A stretch of DNA of 34,088 nt from the NCBI GenBank assembly GCA_023700925.1, contig JAMPXZ010000009.1, positions 1 through 34,088 of the forward strand, read 5' to 3'. This DNA comes from Oligoflexia bacterium. Its GTDB lineage: Bacteria; Bdellovibrionota; UBA1018. Below are positions 25,614 through 26,919 of this stretch, one piece after another. The position numbers and the translations under genes are program-made. Each line of letters begins with the position of its first letter. Within the stretch, counting starts at the first letter, position 1. Below the pieces are notes generated by a model, which saw nothing but the letters and a program-made list of their open reading frames with translations, had not been told where the DNA came from and ran no database searches.

Positions 25614-25689
25614 TGGAGGTGACGGTGAGAATCGAACTCACAAAAAACGGTTTTGCAAACCGTCCCATTAGCCATTTTGGTACGTCACC
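25614..25689 (-). tRNA. tRNA-Cys (anticodon GCA)
   Basis: A complete cloverleaf on the minus strand: acceptor GGTGACG pairs perfectly with CGTCACC; D-arm CCA...TGG; anticodon arm ACGGT-TTGCAAA-ACCGT with anticodon GCA; T-arm GTGAG-TTCGATT-CTCAC; discriminator U73, the normal identity base for Cys; encoded CCA. It lies 70 bp downstream of the queE stop on the same strand, with an AGCAAGC-CCCG-GCTTGCT hairpin in the gap. Confidence 0.95.
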
Positions 25690-25759: not shown

Positions 25760-26434
25760 TTAGACGCCCTTGCGATCCGGTCCCCAGATCAGCTTGTGAA
25801 GCTGGTACTGCAGCCTGACCGGCAGGCGATCTTCGAGGATCCGTTCGGCAAGCCACGCGAGTTCGACGCCCGGATAAGCGCCCGGCGCGCCGCGGGCGGA
25901 CTGGGCCGCCGAAAAAAGAATCTCCTTCGGCCTCAGGCGCCCGGAGCGAACGAGGTCGCGTGCCCAAGGATAGTCCTCCGGCGCGGCGAGCACGAACTTG
26001 ATCTCATCGCTTTCCTTGAGAAGGGGCAAATTTTCCTCGAAGCCACCGCGGCACATGCCGCTGCCCGGGGTCTTGATGTCCATGATGATCCGCGCGGACG
26101 CGACGACCCGGGCGATCGAGACCTCGCCATGGGTTTCGATGCTCACGGCGTAGCCTTGGGCGACGAGAGCCTCGACCAGGGCCGGTGCCTCTCGCTGCAG
26201 GAGGGGTTCTCCGCCGGTGAGGAGCACGTTTCGCGCGCCGAATGGTCGGACTGCTTCGAGGACCTCGGGGATCGTCATCTTGCGCCCGCCGTGAAACGCA
26301 TAGGCCGAATCACAGTACGCGCATCTCAGGTTGCAGCCGGTCAAGCGGATGAAGGCGAATGGGAGCCCGGCGAGCGAGCTTTCGCCCTGAATGCTGTGAA
26401 AGATCTCGGTGACAAGCACTTCGCCGGAGCCCAT
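25760..26434 (-). CDS. queE: 7-carboxy-7-deazaguanine synthase QueE
   Basis: A 224-residue radical SAM enzyme: the iron-sulfur motif CNLRCAYC has Cys34, Cys38 and Cys41, LLTGGEPLLQ is the SAM-binding GGE motif, and HSIQGESSLAG is the substrate-side signature of QueE. It converts 6-carboxytetrahydropterin to 7-carboxy-7-deazaguanine, a step towards queuosine. ATG 26434 is preferred over the track GTG at 26452. The upstream leader holds a c-di-GMP-I riboswitch and a terminator ending just before the start, and tRNA-Cys lies downstream. No other que gene is in the window. Confidence 0.93.
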   Translation of the reverse strand: MGSGEVLVTEIFHSIQGESSLAGLPFAFIRLTGCNLRCAYCDSAYAFHGGRKMTIPEVLEAVRPFGARNVLLTGGEPLLQREAPALVEALVAQGYAVSIETHGEVSIARVVASARIIMDIKTPGSGMCRGGFEENLPLLKESDEIKFVLAAPEDYPWARDLVRSGRLRPKEILFSAAQSARGAPGAYPGVELAWLAERILEDRLPVRLQYQLHKLIWGPDRKGV

Positions 26435-26452
26435 GAGGCAACCCCATACCAC

Positions 26453-26498
26453 AAAAAGGACGAGGCCCGGCGCCGCTTTCCTGGCGGCCCGAGCCTCG
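26453..26498 (-). terminator. Intrinsic terminator in the queE leader
   Basis: A long GC-rich hairpin, CGAGGC-TCGG-GCCGC with loop CAGGAAA and its complement, is followed by TCCTTTTT (T-run 26457-26453). It ends one base before the possible queE GTG at 26452, so it either ends a stand-alone riboswitch RNA or attenuates queE. Confidence 0.85.
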
Positions 26499-26579
26499 CG
26501 GGGACTGAAGAGGAGGTCTCCTTTGAGGTAGGGGACCCCCCTTTGAAACTTGGCGGACCATCCATCGGTCCTTTTCGTT

Positions 26580-26684
26580 CCTCCTTTGGCAGCCCGGCTG
26601 ACAAGAACCGCCGGGGTAAGCGGTTCGTAGCCCCGTGGCTTTGCGTCCCGGCCTTTCGGCGCGGTTTGCCTTTTTCAAAGGGGG
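26580..26684 (-). ncRNA. Cyclic-di-GMP-I (GEMM) riboswitch aptamer
   Basis: The minus strand carries the core of the class I c-di-GMP aptamer in order: GGCAAACC, a stem capped by a GAAA tetraloop, GGGACGCAAAGCC, a second stem, then AGCCGGGCTGCC. P1 forms from CCCCCTTTG (5' end at 26684) and CAAAGGAGG, with one mismatch. The base just before CAAACC is G, the form tied to c-di-GMP rather than the A reported in cGAMP-sensing relatives. The aptamer is followed by hairpins (GGACC...GGTCC, GGGGTCCCC) and an intrinsic terminator before queE. Bdellovibrio is known to express an abundant riboswitch RNA of this class (merRNA), so a stand-alone RNA is a serious alternative to control of queE. Confidence 0.93.
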
Positions 26685-26754
26685 TTGAGGTTGAACCCGC
26701 CTCTTCAAAGCGCCCTTTCCGTGGGCTAAAGACTGATAAGCGCTAGCTTTATTC

Positions 26755-26783
26755 CTATTATGGTTTCCAGCTAACTTTGTTAA
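26755..26783 (-). promoter_or_regulatory. Candidate promoter for the riboswitch RNA
   Basis: Minus-strand TTAACA (26783-26778) is 17 bp from TAATAG (26760-26755), with CATAAT overlapping at 15 bp. Transcription would start near 26748 and give an RNA of about 295 nt to the terminator. A hairpin AGCGC...GCGCT lies between the promoter and the aptamer. A FliA-type site was looked for and not convincing. Confidence 0.4.
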
Positions 26784-26919
26784 AACCTCTATAAACATCC
26801 TAATGCGGCGCGTCGCAAAATGCAAGAGCTGTTTTTAATGCTATGAAATCCCAAGAAAAGTTCTCTCAACGTCCACCCTGATTTTTCCGAAAAGAGACTC
26901 AAGGAGGCGTTCGCCGGCC

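Follow-up and report, generated by a model that had tools for sequence, protein, structure and literature searches.

The window, which is the whole 34,088-nucleotide stretch of Oligoflexia bacterium DNA that was analysed, carries a c-di-GMP-I aptamer followed by an intrinsic terminator, queE and a gene for tRNA-Cys, all on the minus strand. The features on which our interpretation turns are given below in the direction of transcription.

26797-26825 (minus): predicted promoter of the RNA, with -35 TTGCAT (26825-26820), a 17-nt spacer containing an inverted repeat, and -10 TAGGAT (26802-26797); start at about 26790
26453-26790 (minus): whole stand-alone RNA, about 340 nt, with ends predicted from promoter, covarying structure and terminator
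26712-26726 (minus): 5' hairpin H1, GCCC-ACGGAAA-GGGC, its loop containing ANGGA (alignment A1)
26700-26706 (minus): GAAGAGG, the 5' strand of closing helix P0; pairing with CCUCUUC holds in 99% of alignment cells, and apart from one pair that changes on both sides the helix hardly varies
26673-26684 (minus): CCCCCUUUGAAA, 5' strand of P1 and its flank, able to pair alternatively with 26548-26537 (12 nt fully complementary in the window, as in many relatives)
26584-26679 (minus): c-di-GMP-I aptamer (P1, P2, P3), with strong covariation in P2 and P3
26537-26548 (minus): UUUCAAAGGGGG, partner in the alternative helix, its G-run doubling as the 5' arm of hairpin H4 (alignment A1, complementarity)
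26507-26513 (minus): 3' strand of P0, CCUCUUC, the end of a C-rich pre-terminator segment (consensus fold, alignment)
26453-26498 (minus): intrinsic terminator, stem 26498-26461, U-run of five U at 26457-26453; 11 of 12 stem pairs covary among 36 relatives
26443-26451 (minus): extended -10 promoter motif of queE, TGGTATGGG, between terminator and start codon; TGnTA at the matching place in relatives
25760-26434 (minus): queE, 7-carboxy-7-deazaguanine synthase (radical SAM; NCBIfam TIGR04349, Pfam Radical_SAM), probably not a target of the RNA
25614-25689 (minus): tRNA-Cys (GCA), third in the conserved order RNA, queE, tRNA-Cys; adjoins the RNA in genome G041

Aptamer, promoter and fold of the RNA

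The top Rfam label for the aptamer is c-di-GMP-I-GGC (RF03167; cmscan 63.1 bits, cut-off 59, E 8e-13), in a near tie with c-di-GMP-I (RF01051), which scores 73.0 bits at the same site, 26679-26584, against a gathering cut-off of 35. We set aside the GGC label because at the marker position of that variant, equivalent to A47, the window carries A in place of G (window GACGCAAAG, model GACGCGAAg), the sense of the label being taken from the RF03167 consensus and our own reading. About half of the relatives in the window's class miss the RF03167 cut-off, and all pass that of RF01051. The ligand-contacting bases, read from the model alignment (C92 by eye), are G20, A47 and C92, the ordinary c-di-GMP set, numbered as in the Vc2 structure. 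Thus, the preliminary description was right to call the aptamer near canonical, and its proposed Infernal comparison with Rfam GEMM-I came out well above threshold. With five GGDEF domains encoded in its genome, the organism probably makes c-di-GMP, and we infer that the RNA would bind it. Almost every member of the order has ACCCC (often UUACCCCG) as its P3 loop (alignment A1, columns 192-200), and part of family f5 (L025, L029-L031, L035, L036, L041) has a second hairpin with an ACCCC loop at the tip of H4.

Upstream of the aptamer, the pattern TTG[ACT]-N18..20-TANNNT occurs in 38 of the 42 class loci (5.4 +/- 2.0 in Markov simulation), and 33 of the 42 show a narrower form in which GC[GA] precedes the -10 (0.35 simulated), although the pattern was picked after viewing these sequences and the simulation therefore overstates its significance. 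A strict form matches just once in the genome from which the window comes, namely at this promoter. We predict that the RNA has its own promoter of sigma70 type. The inverted repeat in its spacer, TAAYGC-N3-GCRTTA (window 26797-26825, minus strand), also precedes an HTH_3 (XRE) gene and an alpha/beta-hydrolase gene (L294-L323), and that XRE gene turned up in 44 genomes belonging to the window's order and in a single further genome. The occurrence of the repeat at both sites, together with this distribution, suggests that the XRE gene product may regulate both.

An alignment of 36 RNAs folds into P0 (GAAGAG/CUCUUC), the aptamer, hairpin H4 and the terminator. Two-sided changes occur in 31 of 47 pairs, and the covariation score is 0.458, compared with 0.205 for shuffled alignments and at most 0.135 with partners slid. 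P0 is nearly invariant, so that its support is complementarity rather than covariation; at the 5' hairpin, a simple count finds ANGGA in the H1 stretch of 26 of the 36 sequences. The minimum-energy fold of the window RNA on its own has a z-score of -3.7, for which alone it was used, as it mispairs the 5' end with the terminator.

The terminator was missed by a simple terminator scan, presumably because of the three bases between stem and U-run and a bulge in the stem. It had been described earlier as lying directly before the queE start, and this is borne out, with a covarying stem and an end about 20 nt before queE. Likewise, the span first given for the RNA, 26453-26783, is close to the predicted transcript from about 26790 to 26453. 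Comparison across the order shows that the promoter motif, aptamer, closing helix, H4 and terminator are conserved as predicted elements. Loci of family f2 (L032, L038, L043) and family f7 (L044, L045) depart from the architecture common to the order, having longer, differing extensions downstream of the aptamer and ahead of the terminator.

Superimposed on this fold is a possible switch. The complementarity between CCCCCUUUGAAA and UUUCAAAGGGGG reaches 12 nt in the window's family and averages 8.4 nt over the class, against 5.5 nt when shuffled; the long form is limited to part of the window's family. The alternative helix and P1 are mutually exclusive, which suggests ligand-driven refolding in that family, but the helix may be incidental.

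queE and the genomic surroundings

The gene after the terminator, with its ATG at 26434, has TIGR04349 as its best NCBIfam model (E 1e-69, under that model's cut-off). queE lies within about 330 nt downstream of the RNA in about 34 of the 42 class loci, mostly beginning 20-90 nt past the terminator, and in G036 two contigs with a common end sequence suggest the same order. This association is not obligatory. The RNA is kept where queE is displaced, to 4.4 kb downstream in G005, to 9 kb downstream in G010 and behind a convergent gene in G047. It is also kept in G039 and G041, assemblies that are both 95% complete and in which QueE was not found; in G041, tRNA-Cys comes immediately after the RNA.

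queE also appears to have a promoter motif of its own. TGnTA stands between terminator and queE in 22 of 37 queE loci (5.5 +/- 2.2 in Markov simulation, for a motif picked after viewing the sequences), mostly about 12-20 nt before the start codon, a placement that points to a short or absent 5' leader with a predicted start site. The motif is present in G017, where no RNA was found. It is absent from 15 of the 37 loci, and the window's own hexamer, TATGGG, is a poor -10. Taken together, the comparison shows that queE is neither always present nor, judging by its predicted motif, in need of the RNA's promoter. A literature search gave no title or abstract linking queE with a c-di-GMP riboswitch.

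The contigs of many relatives end 400-540 nt upstream of the aptamer (L002, L004, L006, L019, L020, L023, first 150 bases). By eye, the sequence at these ends resembles a divergent rRNA operon leader, which in many cases gives the RNA an apparent position next to rRNA genes; cmscan detected no rRNA in these contig-end loci. We considered a repeat effect as the cause of the clustered ends and set it aside on the strength of this resemblance.

Distribution over the phylum and the merRNA of Bdellovibrio

Of 368 genomes from the phylum Bdellovibrionota, 136 were found to have exactly one c-di-GMP-I aptamer, as were 42 of the 58 in the window's class, and none had two; most genomes are incomplete, so that absences are weak evidence. 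Several genomes that seem to lack the RNA also lack queE, and in G032 a contig end cuts the 3' part of the RNA; some absences are thus assembly gaps. The pattern scan yielded named relatives that are MAGs, for the most part labelled Bdellovibrionales, Oligoflexia or Bacteriovoracaceae. Each of the 58 class genomes searched has genes for several flagellins, so that the bacteria carrying the RNA are flagellated, like Bdellovibrio.

Outside the window's class, the first downstream open reading frame of at least 150 amino acids is convergent at 46 loci, co-directional at 15 and absent at 2. Eight convergent neighbours were tested: seven encode SLT and LysM lytic transglycosylases (families f13, f18, f25, f26, f28), and the eighth, in B. 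bacteriovorus HD100, is a class IV aminotransferase.

The genome of HD100, a predatory bacterium, provides the link to a known RNA. The sole aptamer of G223, which we take to be this strain, lies at 1,073,951-1,073,868, inside the published merRNA (1,073,741-1,074,185, minus strand), an RNA massively expressed in attack phase and proposed to store c-di-GMP (Karunker et al. 2013, PMC3627812). Those authors saw no conservation of merRNA outside the Bdellovibrio lineage (PMC3627812). In the window, too, the aptamer is the only one of its type in a Bdellovibrionota genome, and the RNA ends in its own terminator with, it appears, no controlled gene after it, given that the terminator covaries and that the RNA is kept without queE. 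The lineage suggested earlier, akin to Bdellovibrio, is correct at the level of phylum, although the window's class differs from that of Bdellovibrio.

In 33 of 35 merRNA loci of the Bdellovibrionaceae, GGUUUCAUUCCCC is kept before the terminator. In the same family (loci L197-L230 and L049), 33 of 35 loci retain GGTTTCATTCCCC, mostly as GATTGGTTTCATTCCCCTTA, immediately ahead of the terminator and about 60-110 nt downstream of the aptamer. GGTTTCATTCCCC would be a conserved, output-like segment of merRNA.

Function and comparison with known systems

The window RNA is, with high probability, a single-copy, stand-alone small RNA of merRNA type, about 340 nt long, that probably refolds with c-di-GMP and is not a cis-acting switch of queE. 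By merRNA type we mean architecture and distribution; descent from a common merRNA is not implied. Of the two readings offered by the preliminary description, it is the stand-alone RNA that gains support, from the distribution, the single copy, the RNA's own predicted promoter and terminator, and the presence of HD100 merRNA in the set. Transcription would start from this promoter at about 26790, pass through the 5' hairpin and an aptamer enclosed in a long-range closing helix, and end at the terminator at 26453. In the window's family, binding of c-di-GMP would stabilize P1 (CUUUG/CAAAG), with UUUCAAAGGGGG then available for H4, whereas without ligand the 5' strand of P1 could pair with UUUCAAAGGGGG over 12 bp. 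The RNA might then hold c-di-GMP as a reservoir or sponge, the role proposed for merRNA in HD100, or it might work in trans, gated by c-di-GMP; we regard these two modes as about equally likely.

The other earlier reading was that c-di-GMP controls queE. In such a cis-acting riboswitch, folding altered by the ligand would set read-through at the terminator (26498-26453) and hence queE expression. Arguing for this case, aptamer, terminator and queE are co-directional in about 34 of the 42 class loci, the adjacency has long been kept in most of the class and could reflect read-through control in those genomes, and a helix competing with P1 exists in the window's family. Counter to this, that helix involves P1 and H4 and not the terminator, whose stem covaries as a self-contained hairpin and whose arms have no conserved anti-terminator partner in the consensus fold. 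Furthermore, queE has its own promoter motif, present even in a genome in which the RNA was not found, the RNA persists with queE kilobases away or not found, and the neighbours are mostly convergent in relatives outside the class. A queE that is at times displaced or not found, and that carries a motif of its own, would not be one that always follows the RNA and depends on its transcription. We therefore consider control of queE improbable. The same low standing applies to a ligand other than c-di-GMP, for example 3',3'-cGAMP. A known cGAMP-type change is G20A, whereas an automatic read of 105 loci gave G at position 20 in all 99 readable aptamers and A at position 47 in all 101 readable ones, for which reason we set cGAMP specificity aside. 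What speaks for such a ligand is that cGAMP is made by a Bdellovibrio Hypr GGDEF enzyme (PMC9140294) and bound by Geobacter variants of GEMM-I (PMC8835794).

Closer to the stand-alone RNA, and in fact a sub-case of it, is the idea that the molecule is a c-di-GMP reservoir or sponge and nothing more, which through very high expression would take up much of the free c-di-GMP, the rest of it being scaffold. This is a serious contender that we would put at somewhat below an even chance. It accords with the abundance of HD100 merRNA in attack phase and its proposed storage role (PMC3627812), and with the one strong, dedicated promoter predicted for the window RNA. A sponge, however, needs the aptamer alone, yet the order as a whole conserves H1, P0, H4 and the C-rich pre-terminator segment, and the Bdellovibrionaceae retain GGUUUCAUUCCCC ahead of the terminator. 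These conserved parts outside the aptamer suggest that the RNA is more than a sponge. More speculatively, and with the odds against it, merRNA could be a phylum-wide family of c-di-GMP-gated, trans-acting RNAs, in which the ligand would switch between P1 and a downstream segment, exposing or hiding a C-rich output module near the terminator; this module would base-pair with mRNA targets or be bound by a protein, for example CsrA.

merRNA has been reported as unique to the Bdellovibrio lineage, with a role guessed from its abundance alone. We find a single-copy, terminated c-di-GMP aptamer RNA, with a predicted promoter, in more than one third of the sampled phylum, and lineage-specific conserved parts around its aptamer. 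The role of merRNA thus becomes testable by comparison, as output segments and switch helix can be mutated apart from the aptamer. The locus also illustrates that annotations of the form 'riboswitch upstream of gene X' can point to the wrong gene.

Relative to the known families, the window RNA shares with c-di-GMP-I (GEMM-I, RF01051) the P1-P2-P3 aptamer fold and the G20/A47 core, at 73.0 bits; typical members control a downstream gene, whereas the window RNA appears to control none. With c-di-GMP-I-GGC (RF03167) it shares a score above the cut-off (63.1 against 59 bits) but differs in the ligand core, where A replaces the G of the model consensus. HD100 merRNA measures 445 nt, with more than 200 nt before the aptamer, compared with about 340 nt and about 110 nt in the window RNA, and it has a convergent neighbour gene, whereas the window RNA, in another class, adjoins queE and tRNA-Cys. 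Outside the aptamer, no sequence is evidently common to merRNA and the RNAs of the window's class, nor did we notice common flanks or neighbours, the SLT/LysM neighbour being common to other families only. What the two RNAs share is a c-di-GMP-I aptamer in a stand-alone, single-copy RNA of the same phylum, a possible long-range helix around that aptamer, and a C-rich segment just before an intrinsic terminator.
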